IMG/VR virus record: IMGVR_UViG_3300028025_003438
Location: 1-24,471 of that record
Origin: a virus
Direction: 5' to 3' (one strand)
Length of the DNA: 24,471 nucleotides
Shown here: piece by piece, positions 347 through 18,988 of the stretch
Position numbering within the stretch: position 1 is the first letter of the stretch
Layout: every line of letters starts with the position of its first letter
Program-made: the position numbers and the translations under genes
The notes under the pieces: generated by a model
Told to the model about the DNA's origin: nothing
Database searches by the model: none
Seen by the model: only the letters and a program-made list of their open reading frames with translations

Positions 347-1951
347 ATGTCCCGCTGGATACATGCACCATGCCCTAAATGTAGTTCATCAGACGCATTT
401 AGCTACAAAGAAGATGATAGTCATGGCTTCTGCTTTAGCTGTCAGAAGTCTTCACCTGTAGACCTTAACTTTAAACCAACTGTATATCACAAAGAGAATT
501 ACGACATGCATACCTTAGAGGAAATTAAAGATTATGACACTAGAGGATTTCAAGAAAGAGCTATCACAAAAGTGGTTGCATCTCATTATGGAGTTAAAGT
601 ATCGTATGCAGAAGATGGTACAATCAGTAGTCACTTCTACCCATATACTCGTGGCGGTATCGTTGTTGCCTATAAGGAACGTAAACTACCTAAAACATTC
701 CTTATACATGGTGACTTTAAAGACACTGAGTTATTTGGCCAGAATGTTTCCTCAGGTGGTAAGCGCATTGTTATTACTGAAGGAGAACTGGATGCGCTTG
801 CCGTGGCACAAGCCCAACACGATAAATATTCTAAATTCTATCCGTCAGTCGCAATCCCGTCGGCATCGGCAATGTCTCTGATCCTTAATCAACGTGAGTA
901 CCTTCGTAGCTTTGATGAAGTAGTACTTATGTTTGATATGGATGAGCCAGGTAAAAAGGCTACTCAACAAGCAGCTAAGATTATTGGTTACGATAAAATT
1001 AAAGTAGCAGACTTACCTGAGAAAGATCCATGTGATGTATTAATTAAACATGGTTCAGCAGAGTTAATGAAGTGTATCTTTAATGCTCGTACATACAGCC
1101 CTGCTGGTGTAGTTAAAGGTGAAGAGATCTGGGAACAGTATCAGCGTAGACAGTCTACTGTATCTGTACCTTATCCTCATTGTTTAAATGGCTTAAATGA
1201 AAAGCTATATGGTATGAGACAAGGTGAGATTGTATTGTTTACTTCAGGTACTGGCTCAGGTAAATCAACTGTCATTAAAGAAATTGTATTTGAAATCCTA
1301 AGTAAAACTACTGACATGGTGGGTATGGTTTCTCTTGAAGAATCTGTAGGTGATACTGCTCAAAAGTTTATTAGTATGCAGCTACAAAAGAATCTTAATG
1401 TTGATGTTGTATCTGAACAAGAACAATATGAAGCATTCCAAACAGTCTTTGGTGATGAACGATTAATCTTATTAGACCACCAAGGTTCTGTAAGTGATGA
1501 GTCACTCATTGATAAGATGGAACACCTAGCATTGATGGGTTGTAAGTATATTATCCTTGATCACATTACTATTGCTGTATCTGAAGGTGCTAAGGGTAAG
1601 ACAGGTAATGAGGCAGTTGACTCTGTTATGTCTGACTTACTTAAGATAGCTAAGAAACATAACGTATGGTTAGGTGTTGTATCTCACCTACGTAAAGGTG
1701 AAAAACCTTTTGAAGAAGGTAACTTACCTACTATTGATGACATCAAAGGTTCTGGTTCTATCAAACAAATTTCATTTGATATTATCGCTTTTGCACGTAA
1801 TATGATTGCTGAAACAGAAGCAATGCGTAATACTATTCGTCTTCGTGTTCTTAAGTCTCGCTTTACTGGTCTTACAGGTGACTGTGGTACTACTAAGTAT
1901 GATGCTGGTACAGGACGACTACAACAAAATACATTCGTAGACTTTCAATAA
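347..1951 (+). CDS. T7 gp4-like DNA primase-helicase
   Basis: This bifunctional replication protein makes RNA primers and unwinds DNA at the phage fork. At 534 aa it is close to the 566 aa of T7 gp4. A zinc ribbon has C9, C12, C29 and C32 (CPKC and CFSC). The TOPRIM primase core has the conserved Glu in TEGELDALA (E145) and the metal-binding DxD in FDMDEPG (D197, D199). A RecA-type hexameric helicase follows, with Walker A GTGSGKST (301-308), Walker B YIILD (401-405), and a C-terminal KSRFTG motif (503-508) whose Arg corresponds to the gp4 arginine finger. Both activities therefore look intact. The start is an ATG one base after the preceding stop with AGGGAG upstream. The RNA polymerase gene follows after 9 bases. 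Arginine codons here are mostly CGT (11 of 20). Confidence 0.95.
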   Translation: MSRWIHAPCPKCSSSDAFSYKEDDSHGFCFSCQKSSPVDLNFKPTVYHKENYDMHTLEEIKDYDTRGFQERAITKVVASHYGVKVSYAEDGTISSHFYPYTRGGIVVAYKERKLPKTFLIHGDFKDTELFGQNVSSGGKRIVITEGELDALAVAQAQHDKYSKFYPSVAIPSASAMSLILNQREYLRSFDEVVLMFDMDEPGKKATQQAAKIIGYDKIKVADLPEKDPCDVLIKHGSAELMKCIFNARTYSPAGVVKGEEIWEQYQRRQSTVSVPYPHCLNGLNEKLYGMRQGEIVLFTSGTGSGKSTVIKEIVFEILSKTTDMVGMVSLEESVGDTAQKFISMQLQKNLNVDVVSEQEQYEAFQTVFGDERLILLDHQGSVSDESLIDKMEHLALMGCKYIILDHITIAVSEGAKGKTGNEAVDSVMSDLLKIAKKHNVWLGVVSHLRKGEKPFEEGNLPTIDDIKGSGSIKQISFDIIAFARNMIAETEAMRNTIRLRVLKSRFTGLTGDCGTTKYDAGTGRLQQNTFVDFQ

Positions 1952-4224: not shown

Positions 4225-6102
4225 ATGAACTCTTATCAACAACTTATCGCTAAATCCCGTTATGCACGTTACTTACCTGAAAAGAAACGTAGGGAGAATT
4301 GGAATGAAACCTCTGAACGTTGGATAGCTTTCTTTCAAAGAGAATTAAAAAATAAAATTAAACCAGATGACAGTATCTGGAATATTCTAGGTAATGAGAT
4401 TAATAATTTGTCTACATTACCCTCAATGCGTTCTATCATGACAGCTGGTGAGGCTCTTCGCCGCACTAATGTAGCCGCATATAATTGTTCTTATTTACCT
4501 ATAGATAATCCTCGTTGTTTTGATGAGGCCATGTACATCCTATTATGTGGCACTGGAGTGGGCTTCTCAGCTGAACAACAATATACGGGTCTATTACCCC
4601 CAGTACCTTCCCTTGTAAATGATCATAATGTTATCATTAAAGTGCAAGACAGTAAAGAAGGTTGGTGTGACGCCTATCGTATCCTTGTTAATATGTTATA
4701 TCAAGGTACCATCCCTACATGGGATGTATCCTTAGTACGTCCTGCAGGTGCTCCGCTTAAGACCTTTGGTGGTCGTGCTTCTGGTCCTGGTCCATTGATT
4801 GACTTGTTTATTTATACAGTTAATAAATTTATGATTGCCCAAGGACGTCAGCTAAAGCCTATCGAGTGCCATGATATCATGTGTAAGATTGGTGAAGTAG
4901 TTGTAGTAGGTGGTGTACGCCGTAGTGCTATGATTAGCTTAGGTGACTTAGGAGACTATGACCATGCTACCGCTAAGACAGGTACATGGTGGGAACAACA
5001 TGGTGAACGTGCTCTGGCTAATAACTCAGCTGTATACAATAGTAAGCCTTCTGTAGGCGAGTTCATGAAGGAGTGGTTAGATATCTACAACAGTCATTCA
5101 GGTGAACGAGGAATCTTTAATCGTGAAGCATCACAAAAACAAGCAGCAAAATGGGGTCGTCGTGATAGTACCACAGACTATGGAACAAACCCTTGTTCAG
5201 AAATTATCCTCAAGCCCTACCAATTCTGTAATCTATCTACCGTTGTTGTATCTCCCGAAGATACTTTGGAATCACTCAAACACAAAGTAAGAATTGCTAC
5301 TATCATGGGTACTATGCAGTCAACTCTAACTTACTTCCCTTACCTACGTGATATCTGGCGTACTAATACTGAGTCAGAACGTTTGTTAGGTGTGTCTATG
5401 ACTGGTATTTTAGATAATCAACTATTACGTGGTCAAGGTAATATGAATCTAGAAGAAGTTTTATCTACCCTACGTGACGTAGCTCGTGATACTAACCAAG
5501 AATGGGCTGAGATCTTAGGTATACCTGCTTCAACAGCTATTACCTGTGTTAAGCCTGAAGGTACTGTATCTCAGTTAACACAAACAAGTAGTGGTATTCA
5601 TGCTGGACATGCACCATATTATATCAGACGTATTCGTCAAGATAAAAAGGATCCTTTAACACAGTTCTTAATTGAACAAGGTGTTCCTCATGAAGACTGT
5701 GTGATGAAGCCTGATCAAACATCTGTGTTTAGCTTCCCACAACGTTCACCAGGATTTACCCGCAAAGACTTAACCGCTATTGATCATTTAAATATCTGGT
5801 TAATGTATCAGCGTTATTGGTGCGAACACAAACCATCTGTTACTATCTCTGTTAAGGAACATGAATGGATGGAGGTAGGTGCATGGGTATATGAACACTT
5901 TGATGAGTGTACTGGTATCAGCTTCTTACCTGATGATGGTGGTACTTATCGTCAGGCTCCATACGAAGATATTGACTTGTCAGTATATCATCGTTTAAAA
6001 GATACACAACCCACTATTGATTGGGAAAATTTTATTGAAGATCGTGATAATGTTGAGGGTGCTCAAACATTAGCATGTGCAGCAGGAGGATGTGAGATTT
6101 GA
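4225..6102 (+). CDS. Class II (adenosylcobalamin-dependent) ribonucleoside-triphosphate reductase
   Basis: This enzyme reduces ribonucleotides to deoxyribonucleotides for phage DNA synthesis, using coenzyme B12 to form a thiyl radical. The sequence (625 aa, against 739 in the Lactobacillus monomeric enzyme) shows LPSMRS (65-70), the redox Cys in YNCSYLPID (C88), the active-site loop TNPCSEI with N322, C324 (thiyl radical position) and E326, the partner Cys in FCNLS (C335), and the KPEGTVSQL phosphate-binding loop (443-451). It ends in CAAGGC (C618, C623), a C-x4-C pair that passes electrons to the active site. No oxygen-labile glycyl radical domain or small subunit is present, as expected for class II. 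The start ATG follows AAAGGAAC. The stop overlaps the start of the thioredoxin-like gene, its likely electron donor. Activity would depend on cobalamin in the host. Confidence 0.95.
   Translation: MNSYQQLIAKSRYARYLPEKKRRENWNETSERWIAFFQRELKNKIKPDDSIWNILGNEINNLSTLPSMRSIMTAGEALRRTNVAAYNCSYLPIDNPRCFDEAMYILLCGTGVGFSAEQQYTGLLPPVPSLVNDHNVIIKVQDSKEGWCDAYRILVNMLYQGTIPTWDVSLVRPAGAPLKTFGGRASGPGPLIDLFIYTVNKFMIAQGRQLKPIECHDIMCKIGEVVVVGGVRRSAMISLGDLGDYDHATAKTGTWWEQHGERALANNSAVYNSKPSVGEFMKEWLDIYNSHSGERGIFNREASQKQAAKWGRRDSTTDYGTNPCSEIILKPYQFCNLSTVVVSPEDTLESLKHKVRIATIMGTMQSTLTYFPYLRDIWRTNTESERLLGVSMTGILDNQLLRGQGNMNLEEVLSTLRDVARDTNQEWAEILGIPASTAITCVKPEGTVSQLTQTSSGIHAGHAPYYIRRIRQDKKDPLTQFLIEQGVPHEDCVMKPDQTSVFSFPQRSPGFTRKDLTAIDHLNIWLMYQRYWCEHKPSVTISVKEHEWMEVGAWVYEHFDECTGISFLPDDGGTYRQAPYEDIDLSVYHRLKDTQPTIDWENFIEDRDNVEGAQTLACAAGGCEI
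6084..6089 (+). promoter_or_regulatory. Strong AGGAGG ribosome binding site for a TTG start
   Basis: A perfect AGGAGG lies within the last codons of the reductase gene, nine bases before TTG 6099. It supports use of the rare TTG start for the thioredoxin-like protein, since the first in-frame ATG would remove the CxxC motif. Confidence 0.75.
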
Positions 6103-6461: not shown

Positions 6462-6536
6462 GGGTCATTAGTTCAATGGATAGAACAGTGATCTTCTAAG
6501 TCACGAGTGCATGTTCGATTCATGCATGACCCACCA
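6462..6536 (+). tRNA. tRNA-Arg (UCU anticodon)
   Basis: A 75-nt cloverleaf with encoded CCA. The acceptor is GGGTCAT/ATGACCC, the anticodon stem is GTGAT/GTCAC with one T-G pair, the anticodon loop is CTTCTAA (anticodon TCT), the T stem is GCATG/CATGC with the standard loop TTCGATT, and the discriminator is A. It reads AGA and probably AGG. It lies eight bases after the CAU tRNA, so the two are likely processed from one transcript. AGA and AGG are the main arginine codons in the giant 1201-aa late gene but a minority in the primase gene. Confidence 0.95.
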
Positions 6537-6546
6537 TAGGACACAT

Positions 6547-6900
6547 ATGAAATATAAAACACATAACTCAAGGAAATTCCTTAATAACAAACATGGGTTA
6601 GCAGCTATCCAAACTAGTTGTGATATCTCTGGTTGGGCTATGGATGCTAGTGTTACTATTTCCGACTGTAACAGGAATATTACATTAGACTTTAGTGTAT
6701 ACCGAGAAAAAGATTATGCTGAGAAGGCTAAAAAGTTAGCTTTAATTATTAATGAATTAGTAGCAGTACAATCATTTATGGAAGCAAATCTAGATACCTT
6801 TATTGAAGCTAAAAAGAAAGCAGACTTAGAAAGAAAAGAGTCTTTAAGTAAGAGAAAATCAACACCACTTTCACAAATATTAGAGGGATTAGATGATTAA
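6547..6900 (+). CDS. Conserved-looking phage protein of unknown function (117 aa)
   Basis: I do not recognise this family. The N-terminal half looks like a small beta domain (TSCDISGWAMDASVTISDC, then ITLDFSVYREKDYAEKA). The C-terminal half is a helix followed by a strongly charged, Lys/Glu-rich stretch (EAKKKADLERKESLSKRK) and a short tail. The start chosen is ATG 6547, five bases after AGGA (6538-6541). An upstream in-frame ATG at 6511 is rejected because it lies inside the tRNA-Arg gene. The stop overlaps the start of the next gene by 8 bases. Confidence 0.75.
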   Translation: MKYKTHNSRKFLNNKHGLAAIQTSCDISGWAMDASVTISDCNRNITLDFSVYREKDYAEKAKKLALIINELVAVQSFMEANLDTFIEAKKKADLERKESLSKRKSTPLSQILEGLDD

Positions 6901-7132
6901 TGAATATGATATCCGAGATATGCGTGATGACAGCATTATCTTTGAATGTAAACACAGTAACCCTAAGTTAATTACTCGTATGGAAATGTCTGCTCACTCT
7001 CATATCACTGAGGTAGTAGAACAGTTTGAAAGATTCCTACGAGGTATGGGATACTTTCCTCCATCAGGATGTCATCTGGAATTTGTAGATGACCATACAT
7101 ATACTATGGATTGGGCAGACGCTAATGAGTAA
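6893..7132 (+). CDS. Small acidic phage protein of unknown function (79 aa)
   Basis: The protein begins MINEYDIRDMRDDS and contains a helix-like stretch (ITEVVEQFERFLRGMGY) followed by a short hydrophobic strand (HLEFVDD). Small phage proteins with a 'helix, FLRG.GY, then strand' pattern are common near replication genes, as far as I remember, but no function is known to me. It overlaps its upstream neighbour by 8 bases and its downstream neighbour by 8 bases, consistent with coupled translation. Confidence 0.75.
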   Translation: MINEYDIRDMRDDSIIFECKHSNPKLITRMEMSAHSHITEVVEQFERFLRGMGYFPPSGCHLEFVDDHTYTMDWADANE

Positions 7133-7223
7133 GGGTAGTAATCGTAGACCTACTGATGAACAAAAATTTAAAGATAATTATGATAGAATCTTTGGACAAA
7201 AGAAAAAGGAAGAAAAGAAATGA
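7125..7223 (+). CDS. Tiny basic phage protein (32 aa)
   Basis: A 32-residue frame starts at ATG 7125 and stops at TGA 7221-7223. It overlaps the preceding gene by 8 bases and the Dps-like gene by 4 (ATGA), so it bridges two genes exactly. The protein begins MSKGSNRRPTDEQKF, contains DRIFG, and ends in a run of Lys and Glu. From memory, very short proteins with an M-S-K-G-S, R-P, D, F, N, D-x-I-F-G pattern are widespread in podoviruses. No role is established as far as I know. Its last codons contain the AAGGAAG ribosome binding site of the Dps-like gene. Confidence 0.7.
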   Translation: MSKGSNRRPTDEQKFKDNYDRIFGQKKKEEKK

Positions 7224-7678
7224 GTGAATATAATTCAATAGCGCCAGCATTAAAGTGTCTTCATGCTGATAATTTTACAACATACTTTAAATCACACGCA
7301 TTTCATTTTAATGTTCAAGGAAATACCTTTGCACAAGATCATGGATTATTAGAAGAAATTTATTCTTTTTTGTGGGAACAACATGATACTTTAGGTGAAC
7401 AAATTCGTCAATTAAATTTACCTACTTCAATTAGCATGAGTGATATGCTTAAAACAACTGAAATTAGTGAAGCTTCAGGAGTAACTAGCAATAGTGTTAA
7501 CATGTTTGAATCCATATTAAAAGATTTTAATATACTTATGGCTAATGCTCAATGGGTTTATGATAAAGCAGAATCAAGTAATATGGGTGGCTTGTCAACT
7601 TTAGTTGGTGATTATTTAAAAGACTTATCTAAGTTACGTTGGAAAGTACGTGCAACATTAGGAAAGAGTATGCCATGA
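7220..7678 (+). CDS. Dps-like ferritin-family protein (152 aa)
   Basis: Dps proteins form 12-subunit shells that oxidise and store iron and protect DNA from oxidative damage. This one matches the family signature FHFNVQG followed by a Phe, a His and a long acidic helix. By spacing to E. coli Dps (H51, H63, D67, D78, E82), the ferroxidase ligands appear as H29, H41, E45, D56 and E60. All five are present, one as Glu for Asp. The length is slightly below the usual 155-170 aa. There is no Lys-rich N-terminal tail of the kind that binds DNA in E. coli Dps, so DNA binding is uncertain. The start overlaps the tiny upstream gene (ATGA) and the stop overlaps the next start (ATGA), so it is embedded in the phage operon rather than being a stray host gene. 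Confidence 0.88.
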   Translation: MSEYNSIAPALKCLHADNFTTYFKSHAFHFNVQGNTFAQDHGLLEEIYSFLWEQHDTLGEQIRQLNLPTSISMSDMLKTTEISEASGVTSNSVNMFESILKDFNILMANAQWVYDKAESSNMGGLSTLVGDYLKDLSKLRWKVRATLGKSMP

Positions 7679-7932
7679 ATAATGTAAAAAATTATAACAT
7701 CTTTGCATTAAAAGGTGATACACAAACTTCAGATGCGGATGTATGTGAAGCACTAGGGCTAGATCCTAATTTAGCTAACACACCAGAATTAAATGAGGCT
7801 GCTATTAGAAAAATGCACAAGGAAAATTATGATGGGTATATCAAACAAGGTATGCCATCAGATGATGCTTTAGCTAAAGCAGATAAGCTTGCTTACAACG
7901 CAAGAAAAGAAATTCGTAGTCTTACTAAATAA
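7675..7932 (+). CDS. Small phage protein of unknown function (85 aa)
   Basis: This is the last gene of the rightward unit. The start chosen is ATG 7675, which overlaps the Dps-like stop as ATGA and has AGGA about 12 bases upstream. An in-frame ATG at 7639 would add 12 residues lying entirely inside the Dps-like gene and is less likely. The protein begins MNNVKNYNIFALKGD and appears mostly helical, with LGLDPNLANTPELNEAAIRK and a basic C-terminal helix ending EIRSLTK. I recognise no family. The bidirectional terminator begins 9 bases after its stop. Confidence 0.72.
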   Translation: MNNVKNYNIFALKGDTQTSDADVCEALGLDPNLANTPELNEAAIRKMHKENYDGYIKQGMPSDDALAKADKLAYNARKEIRSLTK

Positions 7933-7941
7933 AGAAAAAAT

Positions 7942-7977
7942 AACCCCTTCAAGGAATAATCCTTGAGGGGGTTTTTT
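7942..7977. terminator. Bidirectional intrinsic terminator between convergent operons
   Basis: CCCCTTCAAGGA and TCCTTGAGGGGG form a 12-bp stem with one G-T pair and the loop ATAA (7956-7959). The stem is extended by A-T pairs from flanking A and T runs. T6 follows on the plus strand, and AAAGAAAAAA precedes it, which reads as a T-rich tract on the minus strand. It therefore fits a rho-independent terminator in both directions. It lies between the last rightward gene (stop 7932) and the last leftward gene (stop 7983). Confidence 0.93.
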
Positions 7978-7982
7978 ATTTG

Positions 7983-10900
7983 TTAAGCGTGATTCATTTG
8001 AGCAATACCTGCATTACCTAAATTACGTTTAAATTCTTTGAATCCTTCTTCTACTTCATGAGCAAAATTATCTACCCATAATTTAAACTTATTATTGGCA
8101 CCACCCATTCCAAAAGCTTCTTCAGCTATATTGAATAAGTCTCTAAATGATTTAGCATCTACTGCTAGATTAGGTTTACCTTGAATCCATCCAGCATCAG
8201 TAGCTTTCTTAAGAATGATTTTTTGTTTAGCAACATAGTCATTCCAACTATCCTCGCTATTATGAGACCTTCTTAAGAATACTTCTTTATATGCAGAACT
8301 TTCTATCTTCTTTGCTATTTCATCAAAGACACCACCAAGAGTAGGATAGTCGCCATTATCTCCAATGCCAATATACTTTTCACCTGAAAGTTTATCAAAT
8401 AAATTTCTTTTAGCTTCATTGTATGCTTTATCTAGCTTAACTCCAAACTTAGCAATTTCTTTTACAGCTTGTGGTATAGCAATATTGTTATAAGCATTTC
8501 TATAAATGTGCATACTATCAGCAGTTGTAATTAAAGCATCATGAATAGTAGCTACTGGCATAGGCATTTTAAGTCTTGAATTAACTGCAAGCATCATAAG
8601 CTTAATTAAATCCCCATCAGTAGATTGAACAGGCATAACTCCCATTTGCCTAGATAATGCAGATCCAATTGCATTCTCAAATAAATCAAATGTTTTTGTT
8701 TTCTTATTAAAGAATCTTTGAATACCTTTAGAAGAATTAGGGTTTAAACCTCGTTTAGCCATTGGTGCTTCTACAATACCATTAGGTGTTTGATATTGAG
8801 TAGTTGTTTGACCAATAATTTTTTCTACATACTCCTGTCCTTCAGCTGTAATAGCTTGGCTAATAATATTTTTATTATAGTCAGGTATAAATCCACAATC
8901 AACCGAACTAAAAGACCAATGATCTTTAGCGGTACCTTCAATAGTAGGTACAGTATCCATAACAGCAAACATACGACCTACTCGTTTAAGTGATTCAACA
9001 AATTTAGGGTTAATTGTTTTTCTTAATGTAGCTTCCATAGCATTAGATAAGTCGGTTGCTGCGGCATTAAAATCATTACCGTAAGCTTGGCTTAACACAG
9101 TACCATAGATATCTGAATATTCCTGGGTATCCTGTAAGAATTCTCTGATATGATCAAAGAACATACCTGCATCTTTACCATAAGAGTTTTGCATCATAGG
9201 TACTTTAAACAAATCAGATGCTAATTTATCTGGTAGTTTAGAGTATGCTTCCATAAAGAACTTAGTCCAAGCTTGTTTCTTTTCAGGTTGATCAGGAATT
9301 AATTCATCTAATTGATCACCAATTATATTTAAAGCATGCCCACGCATATCTTCTAATGAAGGGTTGTAAGAACCTAATCGAGTTGCAACAGGGGTATTTC
9401 CTGCATAAAGGGCTTGAATAAAAATACCATTTTGATTTCCATCATCATAATTTAATGCTGTTAATCTTACAGGTGATCTAGATAGTTCAGGAGATTTTGC
9501 AGCTGTTTCTATTTGAAACATATCATCCCATAAATTTTGAAATCCTTGAGCTTCACCTCTAGGCATTTTACTAAGCTTATCTAAAACAAATGAGCTATCA
9601 TTGTCTATTTTACCATCTAACCAGTCATTATATTCTTTACCTAATGCAGCTAAATATCCTGCTATTTCTGGTGTATACATTTTGATTAAATCAATTTCAG
9701 AATATTTTTTAATATTCTTTTTTATATTAGCAGGATCAGCAGAAAAAGAATAGTAATTAACTACAGCCATTTCCATTAAACCTAAGGTAGCTCTTTCAAA
9801 AGGAGTAAGTGCTATCAAAGCTTTATGCCTATCTTCTCCCTGTTTAGCAAATATAGATACTGCTTTATCTTTTAATTCTTGAACCTTTGTGGGATTAAAA
9901 AATGATGTTGAAGTAACGTGTCCTTGTACACCAAAATTAAGCATTTCTCGAATACCACTTTTAGAACCCATGATATCAGTGCCATCGCTGTTTCTAAAGA
10001 AACGCTGATTAGCACTACTATGTATGTAAGCGCTATATAATAACCCTCTTAAGCCTGATGCATTTTTAATATCTCTTTCTAGAGCCTTTTCTTTAGTATT
10101 CATTTGTTGAACAGCATGATCAATTTTAGTTTGATTAAATTTAGCTCTTTGTTCAGGATCACTATCATTATAATCTTTAGGTGGAGAAACATTATTTAAA
10201 AGATTTTTATAAGAAGCTTCATCCATTTTATGTCGTTTAGCAAACACACTAGTGGAGTAGTATCCTGTTTCATCATTTACCATTTTATTTTTGATATCGG
10301 TAAGTTGAAAGTAAGTAGACTTTACATTCTTCTTTAAAAACTTTTCAGCTATAGAACCAAAAATATCTTTAACAGCTTCTGCTACAGTAGAGGTTGTTCC
10401 AGGAATCTTCATAGTATTTTTACTAGTTTGACTTCCTGGTCTTAAGAAATTAGAACCTGATAATTGAGGTACCTTAGAAGGAGGAGATCTACGAGTATCC
10501 CCTGCTAATGCTTCAGATAGCATACTTAATTCTCTAGCATAATCTTTAATTCTAGGTGTAGAACCTAAAACCCATCTGCCATTTTTATCCTGCATTAGCC
10601 TATGGTTTCCATTATACTTTTCTGCTTGTACTTTAGCTTCAACTAATTGTCTAACAGCATCTGGAGGTATATTAATACCTACTCTATCAAGAGCATTTTG
10701 AGCAGAATGTATCATAGAATTAATTAGATTAACTTCTGGTACAGCATCCTCAATAACATCTCCATTTTTATCTACAATAAGGCCACTATCTTCTTTAGTA
10801 TACCCTGTGTTAGGGCTATCTTTAAATTGATTAGTTTCACTTGTAGCTAAAATATGAGCAATACCTATAATAGTAGCTAAAGGTTTAACTTGTTCTTGTG

Positions 10901-11588
10901 GAATATCAAATTCATGTTGTATTTGAATACCCACAGGAACACCTTCATACCCTGCTTTTGTGCTTCCTATAGTGGCATCTAATGGATTAAACAAATCATG
11001 TTCTGTGCTATTAGAAATAGTAGCTAAAACAGGAGCCATTTTATCAGCCATTCTATTGATTGTTACTTCATCAAAATCGCCTTTATTATTAGTAGTTATA
11101 ATGGCTTTAGCCATAGCTACAGGATTGTCTTCCATTAAAGCAGCATCAAAATTAGGGACAGTTTCTAATTGCGCTGCTTGTTCTTCTCCAAACCTTTCCA
11201 TAGGTATTTCTTGTAGCTGATGCTCACCTGTTGTGGGGTCCACAATTGCTCTACCTAATTCATCAAATGCAGGCTCCATCCTTGTTAGGTTAGCATGAGG
11301 AGATTGAGTAACCTCTGCAAGGGCTTCTGGAGATGATAACCCTGTAATCCTATTAGACTCTATTACCCCTTTCATTCCAGGAGCTGGCATAGGAGGAGGG
11401 GATAAAGGCACTGGGTTGTATGTGTTAACACCTTCTTGAGCAGCAACAGAGCCAGGGATTACTGGAGTAGACCCCTGACCATATCTGTCTACAGCTTGGT
11501 TCATTAGGTCTTGAACCGATAATTTACCACCAATAGGCGCAGCAATATTAGCATTGCTTGTTGATGGCGTTGAAACTTTTCCGACCAT
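7983..11588 (-). CDS. Giant virion protein with N4-vRNAP-like RNA polymerase motifs (1201 aa)
   Basis: I infer a virion-packaged, ejected RNA polymerase. In order it has: SSANQRFF (524-531) followed by GSKSGIREMLNFG (541-553), matching the T/DxxGR region and the GSD..R.LF segment of T7-like polymerases; motif A as NYDDGNQNGIF with catalytic D716; motif B as FKVPMMQNSYGK with K795 and Y803, exactly eight residues apart as K631 and Y639 in T7; motif C as TIHDALITT with D1017. The usual Arg four residues before the motif B Lys is Ser here, and DxxGR is diverged to SANQR. About 500 residues precede the core, starting with a Pro-rich, low-complexity segment, and about 180 follow it. It is much smaller than N4 vRNAP (about 3500 aa) but similar to its 1106-aa active core. 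It is the last late gene and its start overlaps the upstream stop (TAATG). Confidence 0.82.
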   Translation of the reverse strand: MVGKVSTPSTSNANIAAPIGGKLSVQDLMNQAVDRYGQGSTPVIPGSVAAQEGVNTYNPVPLSPPPMPAPGMKGVIESNRITGLSSPEALAEVTQSPHANLTRMEPAFDELGRAIVDPTTGEHQLQEIPMERFGEEQAAQLETVPNFDAALMEDNPVAMAKAIITTNNKGDFDEVTINRMADKMAPVLATISNSTEHDLFNPLDATIGSTKAGYEGVPVGIQIQHEFDIPQEQVKPLATIIGIAHILATSETNQFKDSPNTGYTKEDSGLIVDKNGDVIEDAVPEVNLINSMIHSAQNALDRVGINIPPDAVRQLVEAKVQAEKYNGNHRLMQDKNGRWVLGSTPRIKDYARELSMLSEALAGDTRRSPPSKVPQLSGSNFLRPGSQTSKNTMKIPGTTSTVAEAVKDIFGSIAEKFLKKNVKSTYFQLTDIKNKMVNDETGYYSTSVFAKRHKMDEASYKNLLNNVSPPKDYNDSDPEQRAKFNQTKIDHAVQQMNTKEKALERDIKNASGLRGLLYSAYIHSSANQRFFRNSDGTDIMGSKSGIREMLNFGVQGHVTSTSFFNPTKVQELKDKAVSIFAKQGEDRHKALIALTPFERATLGLMEMAVVNYYSFSADPANIKKNIKKYSEIDLIKMYTPEIAGYLAALGKEYNDWLDGKIDNDSSFVLDKLSKMPRGEAQGFQNLWDDMFQIETAAKSPELSRSPVRLTALNYDDGNQNGIFIQALYAGNTPVATRLGSYNPSLEDMRGHALNIIGDQLDELIPDQPEKKQAWTKFFMEAYSKLPDKLASDLFKVPMMQNSYGKDAGMFFDHIREFLQDTQEYSDIYGTVLSQAYGNDFNAAATDLSNAMEATLRKTINPKFVESLKRVGRMFAVMDTVPTIEGTAKDHWSFSSVDCGFIPDYNKNIISQAITAEGQEYVEKIIGQTTTQYQTPNGIVEAPMAKRGLNPNSSKGIQRFFNKKTKTFDLFENAIGSALSRQMGVMPVQSTDGDLIKLMMLAVNSRLKMPMPVATIHDALITTADSMHIYRNAYNNIAIPQAVKEIAKFGVKLDKAYNEAKRNLFDKLSGEKYIGIGDNGDYPTLGGVFDEIAKKIESSAYKEVFLRRSHNSEDSWNDYVAKQKIILKKATDAGWIQGKPNLAVDAKSFRDLFNIAEEAFGMGGANNKFKLWVDNFAHEVEEGFKEFKRNLGNAGIAQMNHA

Positions 11589-14500
11589 TATTTACCTTCT
11601 TTCTTAAATGCGTTAGCAATAGCTTGTTGTGTCCAAGGAAAGCTTCCTAATACAGGAGCTGCTTTGGCAAGCTTCTTTGCACCTTTATCTGTTTTACCTT
11701 CTTCAATATCGTATAGACCTTCACCAACATTTGCAGCCCAAGATGCTTGTGGTGATGCATTTTTAATTTGGCTATAAGCCCAGTCAACTGGTTTACCTTC
11801 TATGACTTTACCTTTAGGTGTTGTTGTATCAAACAAGTTAGGTGACTTATGGAAATCATACAAAGGATCAACTCTTTCCCATAGTTTTTCACCTTGACCT
11901 AACAAACCTGAGCTATATATTAGTCTTTGTGTTTTCTTAGCAGTTGATTTTACATAAGGACTATCATCATCTCCATAAGATAAACCATTTTTAAGCATAT
12001 TAACCATATGACCTGCAATAAGCGACATTGCAATAGTAGTAAATGCACTATAGCGCATAGCCATATTACCCTCTAATAAATATTGTTTGTATAATCTAGG
12101 TAACACAACTGCTTGAGCTGTAGCCATGAATCTTCCCATAGCTGTAATTATTCTAAATCTAGGATCATTAAATATTTTAGGAGTGTTAAACGCCTGAGGA
12201 TTAACAATTCTTTGATCAACCATATTTGATAATGCAGTAGCCACGTTATCTTGGAGATGCTGTGCTTCAGGAGTAGTAGCATTAAAGCTCATAAAGTCTT
12301 GACTAAAAGGGTTTAAGTCTGGCATCTTATCCATTTGAGATAAGAAACCATGTACATCTAAACCATAAGATTGTAATTCTGTTAATGCCTGAGCTTGTTC
12401 TTTTGTAAGACCCATACCTGTTGAAAACATTGCTATTCTATTTGTTTCAGGAACAGAGGCTAACGATTGTAGTTGTGTAAGCATAATATCAGAACCCACA
12501 GAAAGAACAGCAATACGATTTGCATCTGTTTGCGCTCTTAAAGTAATAGCTCTTGCAAATATACCCATTATTTTTCTTTGAATACCTGCTGCAGTGTTTG
12601 CATAATCATACCGTAAAGCTGCACCAGCACCAGTCTCATTATAGCCTAATCTATTAATCATTTTTTGGCCAAAATTTTCTTTAACTAATTTATCAACTTC
12701 GTCTTGGATAGCCTTATATTCTTCTAAAGTTAAATTAGGGTCTTGTTGTTTATTAATAAGGGTATCAATTTTATTTTGTAAAGATACACTAGGTACTGAT
12801 CTTAACATATTGATACCTATCCTAGAGGCAGCATAAGATACCCCTTTATTTATATCAGAAGCTGTTTCTTTAAAATAGGATTTAAAAAAGGTACTTAATT
12901 GTTTTCCTATTAAATGACCAGGAGTTCCAAGAGTTGCTATAGAAGTTTCTGCCATTGAAGACACTGCTGCTTTACCTAAATAAGCTAACATAGACATTGT
13001 GGTACTCCATCCTAATGTCTTATTAATTAAAGATTCTTCTGCTAATGGGTGAAAATTATTATTCATAATATCATAAAAAGCTTTAACCTGTGTTGCAGTG
13101 TTCTTATAATCAGCATCATCTTTAAATTCACCAGCAGCTTTTGCTTTTCTTAGTAACTCAGCTAACACTTGTCCATTCTTACCAAAATAAGTATTAGCCA
13201 TAATGCTATTAGCCATTTGATCTTTATGGTGTTCAATATTATCAAAGATACCTTGTTTAAATAAATGACTTAAATTAGGATTAGTGAATACATTAAATTG
13301 ATTTAAATAATCTCTAGCTAAGCTAGCTTCTTGTTTATTTTTTGAAGTTAAATTATTAATAGCAGTTCTTGCAGAGTTTTGATCTGCATTAGCATTAACC
13401 ATTTCAGTAAGAATATTTAACTTATTAGCAGCCCATAAAGCAGGATCAACCTCAGCTGCCTGAAACAAGGCATTAGTGTCAGATAAATGTAAAGTATTTA
13501 CTCCAGCTACTTGTCCTAAGCTAATCATAGATTGTTGTACGTTATCTAATCTATCTTTCCATGCTTGTAACGTATCACTAAAAGCATCTCCACCTAATGT
13601 ACCTCCTTGACTCCATACTTGATCATAATTAACCTGAACATATTTTTGTGCTTCTTCTTTGCTAACTCCTAATTGTGCAGCTAAATCATCACCACTAATT
13701 TCTTCAGACCATTTACCTAGTAATCTTTGTCTAAAACCAGAGGCATGCTCTCCAGGAAGTATACCAAACCCACCCATAATAGATTTTATTTTTGCTAAGT
13801 TAGTTTTAAAACTACCATCTTCATTAACAATAGAAGGAATAGCTGTATGAGCAAGTTGTCTAAGGTTAGACAAGGGATTAGTAATCATAGGTAATACTGT
13901 TTCTCTAAAGAAACCTGTATGGGTAGGTATTGTATCTAATCCACCAGCATTATTATTTTGAGCATTTTTGCTTTCAGTTCTAGACATTTCTTGAACAGTT
14001 CTATACCCGCCAGTTTGATTTAAAAGGTTTTCATGGTTTTGAGCATTAAACCTTTGAGCATCTCCTAACATTTTTTCATTTAATGCTTGTAAATCAGCAG
14101 CCCCATGCCATCCAGCCATGTCAATACTATGATGTACACCGCCAAAAGCACCTCCAACTAAAAAGCCCCCACCTGCTGCTTCTTTAAGTTGGTTATAATA
14201 GTCAGGAGTATAATGGTAATTAAGATTACGTTGACCAGATTGGCCTAGCATTTCTAATTCTTGTTGTGCAGTTTCTGTAATTGATTCAGCTCCTGCTCTA
14301 ATAACTAAATCACCAGATCTTTTAGCCATAGCTTCTGCTGATTTAATTTGCTTCATAGCAAATTCATTAGAAAAACCTGTTAGCTTAAGTATCTCACTTT
14401 TTGTTTCAGTATGAAGAAGATTTCTTGCTTCTGCTTCGGTTAGCCTACCATTACTTTTAGCTACTATAGCAGATACAGCCTCTTTTTCTCCCACCTTAGT

Positions 14501-15838
14501 AAATAAATTTGCACCTAATAATAAATTTAAACTGAATTTATCTAATATACCAGAACCTAAAGCAGTCATAACTGCTAGCATAGGGTCTTTTTTGTCATCA
14601 GGTTGTTCAGCATAAAATTGCCCTGCATACAAAGCAGATACAGGAATTGTAGCTAATGTACCTGCAATCAATGGGCTTGCCATACCTCCTGTAGCTATTT
14701 CAGCTCCTGTAATAGCAACTATATAAGGTAAGGAATTAATAAGTTGACCTGCAATAAAAGATGCACCTGTAGAAATAGTACCCCATGCACCATTTGCATT
14801 TCCTATATCTGAGAAAGATAATGACTCAGGTAATTGTCCTTTTTCCATTTGATTAAGCTTAACATTTTTAGATGCCTTTTGGCTTAATGTTTCCCAACCA
14901 GTAGAATCACCTATTAATTGACCTATTCCATATGTGTTTTCATATAAGCCTAACCACATACTATCAGACATAGTTCCAAGATTACTCCTGGATTTGTTCA
15001 TTATAGTGCGGTCTTGACTACGAACATCTACCCCTGTATAAACATCAGGAGCCATTGCAGCATATTGAAGGTCATTAACTAGATTTGCTTTTTCTTTAAG
15101 CAACATATTTCTTTGCGAATCAGTAATACCGCTAGGTGCTTCTCCTAAAACTGCACCAGTTAAAGGGTCATATATTTCAGACGTCCCACCATAAGTATTT
15201 AAATCAGATTCAATCTGTTTTAATCTTTCTAAGATCCTATTTTGAGCACCAGTACCTACTGCATTTTTGTGATAGGCATATGTAGCTTCATTTGGAGCAT
15301 TTAAGCCTACAATGTATCGAGGTAAACCTTGTTCTTTTAAAGCTTTTTGCTTAGCCTTTTTAAGCTCTTTAGCAGCAGCAAGTACTGGGTCTTGATCAGC
15401 TAATTCAGGATATAAAATAGAAAAAGATTTTAAATAAGTTTTATCAGATATAGCAGATTCACTTGTACGATTATTTACGGGTGCTAAACCTGTTTTAACA
15501 GCAAAATTGCTTAATGTTTCTCCAGTAGTTGGATTAGTTACATTAGCAAGTTGGCGTTTATATTTATCAGTACCAGTAATATCAACTTGATTAAAGCCAC
15601 TTATGCGAGCCGCTTCAGGTATTAAAGCAGATTCACCTTGGTATTGTCCAGTAATCCATCTACCATCTTTAATATGATTTACTTCAGGGGCATTATATCC
15701 TTGAACACGATATGTGTTTTTATCAGTAGTTTTTGATTTTGATTTAAATGTGTCAGGGTCTATCCAATTAGCAGTAGCAGCAGTTGCGGGGAGTATACTA
15801 CTATCTTCCTCTATTGGTGCGAGATCGGTTGGTTTCAT
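11588..15838 (-). CDS. Giant ejection protein with N-terminal staphylococcal-nuclease-like domain (1416 aa)
   Basis: Probably an internal virion protein injected with the DNA. Residues 24-121 look like a staphylococcal nuclease fold: DPDTF (D29), YRVQGYNAPEV with R44 and E52, TGTDKYKRQLANV with R95, then GETLSNFAVKTGLAPV. The two catalytic arginines and the glutamate are kept; the calcium Asp before E52 is Asn (N49). A hydrophobic, Ala/Gly-rich zone at about 355-446 may insert into membrane. Residues 515-570 (ESITETAQQELEMLG, then AAGGGFLVGGAFGG) match a pattern I remember from large phage ejection proteins. Another hydrophobic segment lies near the C-terminus. GGAG lies about five bases before the ATG (AAAAGGAGAG upstream). 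The middle is long and helical with no recognisable domain. Location next to the polymerase-like giant suggests shared packaging. Confidence 0.8.
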   Translation of the reverse strand: MKPTDLAPIEEDSSILPATAATANWIDPDTFKSKSKTTDKNTYRVQGYNAPEVNHIKDGRWITGQYQGESALIPEAARISGFNQVDITGTDKYKRQLANVTNPTTGETLSNFAVKTGLAPVNNRTSESAISDKTYLKSFSILYPELADQDPVLAAAKELKKAKQKALKEQGLPRYIVGLNAPNEATYAYHKNAVGTGAQNRILERLKQIESDLNTYGGTSEIYDPLTGAVLGEAPSGITDSQRNMLLKEKANLVNDLQYAAMAPDVYTGVDVRSQDRTIMNKSRSNLGTMSDSMWLGLYENTYGIGQLIGDSTGWETLSQKASKNVKLNQMEKGQLPESLSFSDIGNANGAWGTISTGASFIAGQLINSLPYIVAITGAEIATGGMASPLIAGTLATIPVSALYAGQFYAEQPDDKKDPMLAVMTALGSGILDKFSLNLLLGANLFTKVGEKEAVSAIVAKSNGRLTEAEARNLLHTETKSEILKLTGFSNEFAMKQIKSAEAMAKRSGDLVIRAGAESITETAQQELEMLGQSGQRNLNYHYTPDYYNQLKEAAGGGFLVGGAFGGVHHSIDMAGWHGAADLQALNEKMLGDAQRFNAQNHENLLNQTGGYRTVQEMSRTESKNAQNNNAGGLDTIPTHTGFFRETVLPMITNPLSNLRQLAHTAIPSIVNEDGSFKTNLAKIKSIMGGFGILPGEHASGFRQRLLGKWSEEISGDDLAAQLGVSKEEAQKYVQVNYDQVWSQGGTLGGDAFSDTLQAWKDRLDNVQQSMISLGQVAGVNTLHLSDTNALFQAAEVDPALWAANKLNILTEMVNANADQNSARTAINNLTSKNKQEASLARDYLNQFNVFTNPNLSHLFKQGIFDNIEHHKDQMANSIMANTYFGKNGQVLAELLRKAKAAGEFKDDADYKNTATQVKAFYDIMNNNFHPLAEESLINKTLGWSTTMSMLAYLGKAAVSSMAETSIATLGTPGHLIGKQLSTFFKSYFKETASDINKGVSYAASRIGINMLRSVPSVSLQNKIDTLINKQQDPNLTLEEYKAIQDEVDKLVKENFGQKMINRLGYNETGAGAALRYDYANTAAGIQRKIMGIFARAITLRAQTDANRIAVLSVGSDIMLTQLQSLASVPETNRIAMFSTGMGLTKEQAQALTELQSYGLDVHGFLSQMDKMPDLNPFSQDFMSFNATTPEAQHLQDNVATALSNMVDQRIVNPQAFNTPKIFNDPRFRIITAMGRFMATAQAVVLPRLYKQYLLEGNMAMRYSAFTTIAMSLIAGHMVNMLKNGLSYGDDDSPYVKSTAKKTQRLIYSSGLLGQGEKLWERVDPLYDFHKSPNLFDTTTPKGKVIEGKPVDWAYSQIKNASPQASWAANVGEGLYDIEEGKTDKGAKKLAKAAPVLGSFPWTQQAIANAFKKEGK

Positions 15839-15853
15839 ATACTCTCCTTTTGT

Positions 15854-18800
15854 TTACTTAATTGTTTTTAGCCACGGATAATCACGATTTTCTGGGGGTT
15901 TAGCCATTTGGATAACGAATTCACTATATGCTGAATAACCTTCTCTTCGTTTTCCAACGTCTTGTCCTTTACCATTACTACCTATACGAAGCATAGTTTC
16001 TCTTTGTTCTGGAGTTAAACTATTCCATTTAGTTTTCATATCTTTATCGGCAACGTCAAGTTTACCTTTATGAGTTCTAGATAATTGCTCCATAGCTTTA
16101 CCCATATCAACCTGGGCTCGATCAGATAAATAACCTGATTTACCTTCTTTATCAGTGCCACTATATAAATGAGAGCTTGAAGGATTCATTTCAACAATTG
16201 CTGTTGTAGTGAATGCGTGCTTAAATGCATCACTAGATAAGCCTTCGCCCTTTTCTTTAAGATTGCTAAATGTCTTTTCTAAAGCATGTGAAAATTGAAC
16301 AGGATTAATATGTTGGAATTGTTGTGACATTAACACAGCATCTTCTTTCATTTTACCTACTTGTCCTTCATTAATACCTTTAATAGCTTTAACCCTATTT
16401 TCAACAATAGTTCTGACATTATTTTCATTATCTTTTTTCTCATTATAATTAACAGCATAGTTAGAAGGTACAGCAACAACTCCTTGGGGTGTTGCAACAT
16501 CTAAATGGCCATCTGGTCTACGTGACGCCGTAATAGTATTGCCTTCTGGAGTAACATAAGATTGCCAATTTGGTTTATACTTTTTATTCTTACCACTACT
16601 ACCACCTTCACCATCGTCATCACCACTACCACTACCACCTCTACGACCATATCCAGGAGGATAATGCTGAACATTAGCTGCTAGATATGTAGTAGCATTA
16701 CGCATATTGTTCATCCAGTCTTCAGGTGTTTTAGCTTCTGCAAACGCCATACCTAAACCTTTTGATCTTACTGCAGGAGGAATATCTTTAGATATATACA
16801 ACAGTAATTGATCGTTAAGGTGTTGTTGTTCTGCTCTGGCATCTTTAGATTGAGTATGACTCCATCTATTATCCTCTTTTAATATTTCAAATCTTCTATC
16901 AGCTTCTCTAGCAGCTTGGATAGCCTCTTCTTTTCTTTCTTGTAAAGATAATCTTTTCTCAGCAAGCTTTCTATCAGCTTCTGCTTTCTTATCAGACTTA
17001 GCTTGTCCAGCTAATGTAATAGCAGTACGCATATCTTCACGTTCTGTTTGAGCAGCTAATTGTTTATCTTGACGCTTGTTAGCCTCTTCTTGAGCCTGTC
17101 TACGTAAAGAAGTTTCAAATGCTTGTCTACCACCATAAGATAATGCACGAGCAGTATCATAGCCCATAGCACGACCTGCTACAGTAGCTACAGCTAACCG
17201 AGCAACTTCTTGATCATTTAAGCCTAAGACACTCTTAATACCTTTGTATGTAAATAAATCTTTAAGCGAGTTAATAGCAGACTCATCGTCTTTATTAGCT
17301 ATAGCTTTATCAACATCTTTTTGGGAACCCCTTAATTGTTTAATCCAGTATTCAGGTCTAGTATCATCATCTTCTGGTTTTAATGGAGGAACAATTTTAC
17401 CTTCATTAACATCTATTAATGCTTGCATCTCAGCATTAGATGCTTGTTTAGCATCTGGATCAGGGATAAATGCAACTGGCTCTGCAGGCATATCAATAGT
17501 ACTATTGTTACCACCAACAGACTTAGCTACAACAGGAGAAGGTACAGGAAAACGATCTTTACCTTCAACAACTACTTTAGGTTTAGCAGCAAGCATTGGT
17601 AAAGGTTCAATTACCTCCATACCTACATTTTTAAAAGGTCTCTCTGGAATATCGAACTCTGAGCTGACACTACCATTAATCTTTGCTTGTACATCTTTAA
17701 GCTTCATGTCTGCAGTTACATCTGGATAAACAGAACGAGGAACCGCATCTTCTATTTTATTTTCTATTTTATCTTTTATTGTAGAAACCCTAACTAGATT
17801 TTCAGGGATTACTTTTTGATAATCTATTACTGGGCCAGCAATTACTGTTGGTTCAAGCATAGGTACATCTTCAACACCATCTTCATAATGATAACTAGCT
17901 GAACTACCTCTATTAAAGTCATATACTCTTTCAGTACCGTCTTCAAAAGAAGATCCAGGTACATCAGAATGCTCATATGCTAATGATGGTACTGGTACCT
18001 GAATAGTACCTTCATTATAGTTCATTAATTGAGGTACTGCAGAAGTACCGTCAGCATATAACGTATCAGTATATCCTACAGGTATTTTAACACCTAGTCT
18101 ATCAGCAAAAGGTGATTGACCAGCATTAACTCGCATGTCTCTATAAGCAGCAGCTTTATTAGCTATTGCATCATTCATTTGACCTTGAGTAATTAATTGA
18201 ACTTCTTTGTTACTTAATGTAGGAACTAAGCTAGGGTATTGACCCTTATTATCATCAAGACTATACTCAGTCATTGCACTAGGCCTAATAGATATTTCTT
18301 GATTATAAACAGGTATTTCACCCATATAACCTTTTCCTTTAGGCATAGGCATCTCATATGATATTGAACTTTGAGTAGGATCATCATTCTGATAACGTAA
18401 ACCGTCAGGAGCTAACCCTTTACCTTTAACTTTTTTAGTACCATCTTTGTATCCAGCAGCTTGTTGTACTCTACTAGGGATAACATCTGAGTTAACAATG
18501 TTAATAGAGCCATCACGAAATTCTAAAAAACCTTTTTTAGTTTTGTTAGCTTTTCTACCTTCTTGAACCATACGTTTAATAATAGGTTTATTCTTAGGGT
18601 CTTGTGCGGCAGGTTCAGGGATAACAGCTTCGCCAGGAGTTAGCATAGCAGGTACTGTATCTGTATTTTGTTTAGCAGCTTTCCTAGCTTTAGCAGCATC
18701 TTCTGCTTGATATGGCAACATATGCTGACCACGTTTAAATAGTTCTGTCCCTGCTAATGGGTTAGGTGATTTAACTTTTAATGGAGCACCTAAGGTACCC

Positions 18801-18988
18801 ATCTTATATTTGTGAACGTCTTCTTTATGACCTAATGTTTGTCCAGCCTTACCAGCAGCTTCTACAAGTTTAATTTCATGTAGTTGTTGTTTACGGGCTT
18901 CTTCCCGTTCCATCTTAGCTGTTTCTCTGGCTTCTTGAGAAGCAAACTTTAGGTACTCTCTGTGTTGTTTAGCAGATAGTGGTCCCAT
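15854..18988 (-). CDS. Large internal virion or ejection protein with DG repeat motifs and coiled coil (1044 aa)
   Basis: The N-terminus is a charged helix (about 8-45). TVPAMLTPGEAVIP (111-124) is followed by PKNKPIIKRMVQEGRK, a motif I remember from large virion proteins of many phages. Residues 241-297 (EYSL, YPSLVPTLS, then a helix and GQSPFADRLG) match another recurring podovirus virion segment. Six copies of a short pattern [YF]-x-[DE]-G-x-x-x-[VI] occur between 158 and 376 (for example YADGTSAVP, FEDGTERVY, YEDGVEDVP). A long Gln/Glu/Arg-rich coiled coil covers about 620-735, followed by a Gly/Asp-rich linker and a C-terminal domain of unknown function. The start lies one base after the upstream stop. 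A structural role is inferred from context; no enzymatic motif was seen. Confidence 0.75.
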   Translation of the reverse strand: MGPLSAKQHREYLKFASQEARETAKMEREEARKQQLHEIKLVEAAGKAGQTLGHKEDVHKYKMGTLGAPLKVKSPNPLAGTELFKRGQHMLPYQAEDAAKARKAAKQNTDTVPAMLTPGEAVIPEPAAQDPKNKPIIKRMVQEGRKANKTKKGFLEFRDGSINIVNSDVIPSRVQQAAGYKDGTKKVKGKGLAPDGLRYQNDDPTQSSISYEMPMPKGKGYMGEIPVYNQEISIRPSAMTEYSLDDNKGQYPSLVPTLSNKEVQLITQGQMNDAIANKAAAYRDMRVNAGQSPFADRLGVKIPVGYTDTLYADGTSAVPQLMNYNEGTIQVPVPSLAYEHSDVPGSSFEDGTERVYDFNRGSSASYHYEDGVEDVPMLEPTVIAGPVIDYQKVIPENLVRVSTIKDKIENKIEDAVPRSVYPDVTADMKLKDVQAKINGSVSSEFDIPERPFKNVGMEVIEPLPMLAAKPKVVVEGKDRFPVPSPVVAKSVGGNNSTIDMPAEPVAFIPDPDAKQASNAEMQALIDVNEGKIVPPLKPEDDDTRPEYWIKQLRGSQKDVDKAIANKDDESAINSLKDLFTYKGIKSVLGLNDQEVARLAVATVAGRAMGYDTARALSYGGRQAFETSLRRQAQEEANKRQDKQLAAQTEREDMRTAITLAGQAKSDKKAEADRKLAEKRLSLQERKEEAIQAAREADRRFEILKEDNRWSHTQSKDARAEQQHLNDQLLLYISKDIPPAVRSKGLGMAFAEAKTPEDWMNNMRNATTYLAANVQHYPPGYGRRGGSGSGDDDGEGGSSGKNKKYKPNWQSYVTPEGNTITASRRPDGHLDVATPQGVVAVPSNYAVNYNEKKDNENNVRTIVENRVKAIKGINEGQVGKMKEDAVLMSQQFQHINPVQFSHALEKTFSNLKEKGEGLSSDAFKHAFTTTAIVEMNPSSSHLYSGTDKEGKSGYLSDRAQVDMGKAMEQLSRTHKGKLDVADKDMKTKWNSLTPEQRETMLRIGSNGKGQDVGKRREGYSAYSEFVIQMAKPPENRDYPWLKTIK

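Follow-up and report, generated by a model that had tools for sequence, protein, structure and literature searches.

In the window analysed here, the whole 24,471-base virus record IMGVR_UViG_3300028025_003438, the late operon closes with a gene for a 1201-aa protein, a strongly diverged single-chain RNA polymerase of an uncultured podovirus. We computed its fold, active-site register, conservation, coexistence with a T7-like RNA polymerase (RNAP) and gene position; its place among the single-subunit RNA polymerases is almost certain from fold and active site. Virion-packaged enzymes of this type are regarded as a hallmark of N4-type phages, and the strategy is known mainly from there. According to the explanation which, taken as a whole, we consider quite probable, the protein would be a divergent DNA-dependent RNA polymerase of the two-metal type, produced late, built into the particle together with two giant neighbouring proteins and ejected with the DNA into the host. 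There its transcripts would cover the first (early) genes, among them those that lead to the T7-like RNAP; the latter would in turn act at its own promoters on both strands (consensus TAGYCGGTACCTAATAGGG in relatives). The pairing of two such polymerases is itself known from N4 and R22Y; here the N4-like strategy would probably occur in phages that are unrelated to N4 and encode a T7-like polymerase as well.

Predicted fold and active site

HMMER searches of Pfam, PHROGs and PDB found no match of the 1201-aa protein to any RNAP family. PHROGs gave no match, PDB sequences gave none at E-values up to 10, and the two Pfam matches were a sub-threshold one to DNA_pol_A, covering motif C (E = 0.0056), and a weak, unrelated one. 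In a tblastn search of 50,697 phage records the sole relative was gp33 of Roseobacter phage CRP-7 (MK613349; E = 1e-10, 22% identity), and scans of IMG/VR added several dozen loci encoding relatives, which form two main branches (the window clade and the CRP-7 clade) and outliers. No relative was found in the cellular genome contigs scanned. CRP-7 gp33 occupies the same genome position with a T7-like RNAP nearby, but carries arginine at the position of K795 and is annotated as hypothetical. In the available part of the 2019 CRP-7 paper, ORF30 is named as the (T7-like) RNAP and gp33 is not discussed (PMC6918029). We found no earlier description of this polymerase family in the open-access literature, and one may have been reported elsewhere.

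An AlphaFold model of the 1201-aa protein (pLDDT 84.6, pTM 0.85), for which the input alignment comprised 25 sequences from the window and IMG/VR without the CRP-7 protein, has the right-hand fold of single-subunit polymerases that the original prediction had anticipated. Foldseek matched the model to yeast Rpo41, T7 RNAP and human POLRMT in PDB (E = 3e-15 to 2e-11, probability 1.00), and the best 50 PDB matches listed were all single-subunit RNA polymerases, N4 vRNAP not being among these 50. TM-scores were moderate (0.31–0.40 by query length, 0.38–0.52 by target) and rmsd values large, so the match reflects a shared fold with divergent domain placement. Matches in BFVD included phage RNAPs, among them the annotated vRNAPs of phi50-12, RD-1410W1-01, phi 1 and vB_EamP-S6. 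The sub-threshold Pfam match over motif C and one weak DNA polymerase match in BFVD would suit a packaged polymerase of another kind, such as a family A DNA polymerase or a primer-making enzyme; however, RNA polymerases head the matches in both PDB and BFVD, the DGxxxG of motif A and the HDA/HDS signatures are RNAP-like, and a separate family A DNA polymerase is encoded by the phage, making such an identity very improbable.

The landmarks on which the polymerase had been recognised, within residues 515–1035 (window 10046–8484), were all found at the residues proposed: SANQRFF (R529), GSKSGIREMLNFG (K543, R547), DDGNQNG (D716), K795-x7-Y803-G804 and IHDALITT (H1016-D1017; Table 1). Across 38 non-redundant relatives, with identity down to about 20%, R529, K543, R547, D716, Q719 and Y803 were invariant (38/38). 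D1017 was present in all 37 rows with a letter there (one row being gapped) and H1016 in 36 of the 37, while position 795 was lysine in 29 relatives and arginine in nine, with arginine in the CRP-7 branch.

Profile–profile alignment (hhalign), blind to the motifs, of the family against T7-like RNAPs and against N4-like vRNAPs paired D716/K795/Y803/D1017 with D537/K631/Y639/D812 of T7 and with D559/K670/Y678/D951 of the N4 mini-vRNAP. The scores were 53.8 for T7-like RNAPs (E = 2.4e-5) and 44.4 for N4-like vRNAPs (E = 7e-4, P 27%); the 20 column-shuffled controls reached no more than 24.6, and the reversed profile scored 18.6. A smaller alignment held the T7 register over 376 columns, the T/DxxGR arginine included. 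In the model (where numbering equals residue minus 6), D716 is located at the end of strand 706–711, ahead of helix 714–723, K795 and Y803 lie on a helix or at a helix end, and H1016-D1017 occupies the turn between strands 1006–1009 and 1012–1016 (strands and helix in model numbering). These surroundings are canonical for motifs A, B and C, and together with the alignment they support a predicted clustering of D716, K795, Y803 and D1017 in one site.

Fold, active-site register and family-wide conservation thus uphold the assignment to the single-subunit RNA polymerases. A polymerase fold that has lost catalysis and acts only as an internal or ejection protein, in a gp16-like role, would be compatible with the strong divergence, with the placement of the gene among giant late proteins, with K795R in one branch and with the loss of the position of T7 R627 / N4 R666 (S791 in the 1201-aa protein, mostly K in relatives). 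Such a relic is nevertheless unlikely: a protein with a structural role alone would not be expected to retain the metal-binding Asp pair, the Tyr of motif B and the basic residues of T/DxxGR type, yet all of these persist in relatives with as little as about 20% identity. We consider it likely that the 1201-aa protein is catalytically active as an RNA polymerase. T7 and N4 polymerases carry a specificity loop between motifs B and C, and we propose the beta-rich segment found there in the model as a candidate promoter-recognition element.

Table 1. Features of the window discussed in the text, with the basis for each
Feature	Position	Strand	Basis
Putative virion-type single-subunit RNA polymerase (vRNAP-like), 1201 aa	7983..11588	-	ORF call, AlphaFold, Foldseek, profile match to T7 RNAP and N4 vRNAP
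R529, counterpart of T7 R425 / N4 R424 (T/DxxGR element)	10002..10004	-	38/38; aligned with T7 DWRGR element
K543...R547, counterpart of N4 K437...R440	9948..9962	-	38/38; correspondence by hand, N4 spacing one residue shorter
D716, motif A catalytic Asp	9441..9443	-	38/38; aligned to T7 D537, N4 D559
K795, motif B	9204..9206	-	K 29, R 9 of 38; aligned to T7 K631, N4 K670
Y803, motif B	9180..9182	-	38/38; aligned to T7 Y639, N4 Y678
Beta-rich segment, residues 882-971, between motifs B and C	8676..8945	-	Secondary structure of the model
H1016-D1017, motif C (HDA/HDS) at beta-hairpin turn	8538..8543	-	Aligned to T7 D812, N4 D951
NAYNNI (residues 1031-1036), family signature past motif C	8481..8498	-	Invariant in 25-sequence alignment
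Giant late protein, 1416 aa, presumed ejection protein	11588..15838	-	Synteny in relatives; weak SNase match below Pfam cut-off
Giant late protein, 1044 aa, presumed ejection protein	15854..18988	-	Synteny; no Pfam match
T7-like RNA polymerase, 733 aa	1961..4162	+	Pfam RNA_pol 3e-55, PHROG 414
DNA primase/helicase, early/replication operon converging on vRNAP-like gene	347..1951	+	PHROG 239, synteny

Relationship to the T7 and N4 polymerases

The 1201-aa protein shares with T7 RNAP, Rpo41 and POLRMT the fold (Foldseek E-values to 3e-15), the four catalytic residues and the spacing of K-x7-YG and HD[AS]. It differs from them in sequence (about 12% identity), in an extra N-terminal region and a beta-rich insertion between motifs B and C, and in the location of its gene in a late operon. 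The window phage already has a separate, recognisable T7-like RNAP, from which the 1201-aa protein is distinct.

Comparison with the N4 vRNAP (gp50, Schitoviridae) revealed a single-subunit fold and motifs A, B and C with counterparts of D559, K670, Y678 and D951. As in N4, the gene is the last late one, faces the early operon and lies beside giant late proteins, there is a second, T7-like RNAP, and hairpins occur at the left end of the early region (here in relatives). However, the N4 enzyme is 3500 aa long compared with 1201 aa here, and the profile similarity is weak. N4-type head and portal genes are replaced by SU10-type ones, the heterodimeric T7-like RNAP of N4 contrasts with a single-chain enzyme, and the N4 P1–P3 hairpins differ in loop and stem from those of the relatives.

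The likeness to N4 vRNAP put forward in the original prediction did not carry over to sequence, in which the family is no closer to N4 (hhalign 44.4) than to T7 (53.8). The N4 and T7 profiles scored 104.1 against each other, above the score of either against the 1201-aa family, and on this evidence, which comes from small alignments, we read the family as a separate deep branch, farther from T7 and N4 than those are from each other. The ‘N4’ label for the 1201-aa polymerase is a functional analogy of position and setting and does not denote family membership. The size, put at one third of N4 vRNAP, is correct by length (1201 of 3500 aa) but misleading if taken to mean half a polymerase: the catalytic mini-vRNAP of N4 is itself about 1100 aa, so the missing part corresponds to the N4 end domains. 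The N4 hallmark of about 3,500 aa with an NTD and an inhibitory CTD is accordingly absent from the 1201-aa protein, which would represent a smaller natural enzyme without giant end domains.

Co-occurrence with a T7-like polymerase, initially considered unusual, has precedents. N4 has a T7-like RNAPII besides its vRNAP (PMC4496689), and of the two RNAPs of Alteromonas phage R22Y one is a 2,083-aa vRNAP (PMC11705849). The latter also falls outside the typical 3,500-aa size; it is recognised by the N4 vRNAP profile (3.5e-7) but does not match the 1201-aa family.

Gene order and the proposed role in infection

A T7-like RNAP gene was present in 20 of the 23 contigs with a vRNAP-like gene, and, by our reading of the contig coordinates, each of the remaining three breaks off no more than about 4 kb from its vRNAP-like gene, on the side expected for the early operon. 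In seven longer relatives (58–64 kb) and in CRP-7, the late operon ends in giant proteins followed by the vRNAP-like polymerase, and converges on a replication operon with primase/helicase, T7-like RNAP and, mostly, RNR. The vRNAP of N4-like phages has the same place, as the last late gene converging with the early/middle operon, and within the N4/DEV ejectosome it is the third of the ejection proteins (PMC12633501). By analogy of gene position we infer that the 1201-aa polymerase is packaged and ejected, which we regard as probable, as we also infer its catalytic activity and its part in early transcription.

We assign a low probability to a late-made RNA polymerase that stays unpackaged and acts within the same infection cycle. 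Promoter-like sites for the T7-like RNAP do lie on both strands in the relatives, and the labour between the two enzymes could be divided otherwise; but the gene is the last late one, expressed after the T7-like RNAP has acted, which would leave the product little to transcribe unless it were carried to the next host, and N4-like phages are arranged alike. Packaging with the two giant neighbours remains our preferred reading. In the 1416-aa neighbour, N-terminal residues 45–129 weakly matched staphylococcal-nuclease-like domains, below the threshold (E = 0.0019).

The head genes of G001, the nearest relative, are SU10-type, with matches to SU10_portal (E = 2e-123) and SU10_MCP (E = 1e-73), and the best phage match of its capsid was CRP-7 (52%). 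As the portal and major capsid protein are of this type and not of the N4 type, phages like that of the window are, judged by these sequences, not Schitoviridae. The RNR gene is divided in two by an intervening ORF in CRP-7 (35552–38170) and in G009 (6507–9263), possibly owing to an intron or intein, and is intact in the window (4225–6102).

Hairpins and other repeats in the early regions of relatives

The early left end lies outside the window, and the hairpin data come from relatives. All seven long genomes of the window clade carry, within the leftmost 1.3 kb of early sequence and just upstream of the first early genes, one or two copies each of a hairpin with the stem AGAGC, ACAGC, GGGC, GGAC or GAGC and the loop GNTNTT (or GTCTT, GTCTTT). 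Across these genomes ten matches fell within these 1.3 kb and two weak ones elsewhere on either strand, compared with a shuffled expectation of 0.1–0.8 per whole genome. Loop matches fell inside stems of at least 4 bp in 10 of 13 cases in the early 1.3 kb and in 2 of 234 elsewhere (Fisher 1e-13, a post hoc value since the motif was found by eye in the same regions). Four of five stem pairs change on both sides, as counted on hairpins picked because they pair. Confinement to the early end is a stronger point for the hairpins than either the p-value or the covariation.

Collection scans with two of the stems yielded more than 30 related early-region contigs with one to three copies each, some of which also carry the polymerase gene (e.g. 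IMGVR_UViG_3300020044_003577). Under the same definition the hairpin was not found in the CRP-7 branch. Whole-genome scans for exactly repeated hairpins with N4-like settings returned no recurrent class; they failed to recover N4 P1–P3 as such a class too, and are therefore uninformative.

The N4 promoters P1–P3 occupy a corresponding place near the left end (PMC4496689). Going by position and sequence, the early hairpins, with their covarying 4–5 bp stem and GNTNTT loop, are possible but still doubtful candidates for the promoters of the 1201-aa polymerase. The chances appear evenly balanced that they are RNA elements, involved in boxB/nut-like antitermination or in stabilising or processing the leader, which would leave the polymerase itself unaffected. 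The hairpins shortly precede Shine-Dalgarno-like sequences and start codons, as leader structures do, and the 5-bp stem with a 5–6-nt loop resembles lambda boxB. Conversely, an Rfam search of the hairpins gave no match, they are confined to the opening 1.3 kb on the early strand in the manner of the N4 left-end promoters, and none occurs at later genes save the two weak matches.

The family could constitute a third deep lineage of single-subunit RNAPs, independent of N4 vRNAP as well as of T7 RNAP, ejected by widespread SU10-headed podoviruses and using its own extruded DNA-hairpin promoters (4–5 bp stem, GNTNTT loop), a combined claim that we advance as rather unlikely. If true, hairpin-directed transcription by virion polymerases would have arisen in, or spread to, phages other than the N4 group. 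That unrelated, environmentally widespread podoviruses have an enzyme with this fold, missed by standard family searches, suggests that the strategy may be broader, and the cultured CRP-7 and the candidate hairpin promoters may offer a way into promoter choice by virion polymerases and early transcription without host RNAP.

Further repeats were seen in the relatives. Sites resembling TAGYCGGTACCTAATAGGG occur on both strands, several of them intergenic, and recur in G006, G007, G018, G014, G009 and G008 (L058–L081); they are likely, if tentatively, promoters of the T7-like RNAP. Exact copies of GGTACCTAATA are present several times per genome in six relatives. We rejected this sequence as a vRNAP promoter and assigned it tentatively to the T7-like RNAP because it lies on both strands and resembles T7-type promoters. 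One sub-class of TAGYCGGTACCTAATAGGG ends in ...CCTAATACCGAACAA, can be folded as CGGTA-CCTAA-TACCG and in G007 lies just upstream of the RNR gene, and G001 has GTTGNCCCCTAATAGG in place of TAGYCGGTACCTAATAGGG.

The GAGACCACTTGGGGTARGTACCAAG repeat of G001 was set aside as a hairpin, its first stem being broken in the second copies of other contigs. It is a conserved 25–29 nt element found in one or two copies before early genes in the early regions of L082, L083, L084, L085 and L086. The early region of the L016 contig (G009; oriented positions 33024, 34323 and 34957) contains three twin hairpins with compensatory stem changes, each consisting of nnAGC-ATA-GCTnn followed by GGAC-TAC-GTCC or GAAC-TAC-GTTC. 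At the early left end (first 600 nt), the relatives have a leader that is strikingly rich in T and G and in which conserved TTTGTGTGTGAAAAAGAATCA and GTGTGACCCCCC blocks precede the first early gene.
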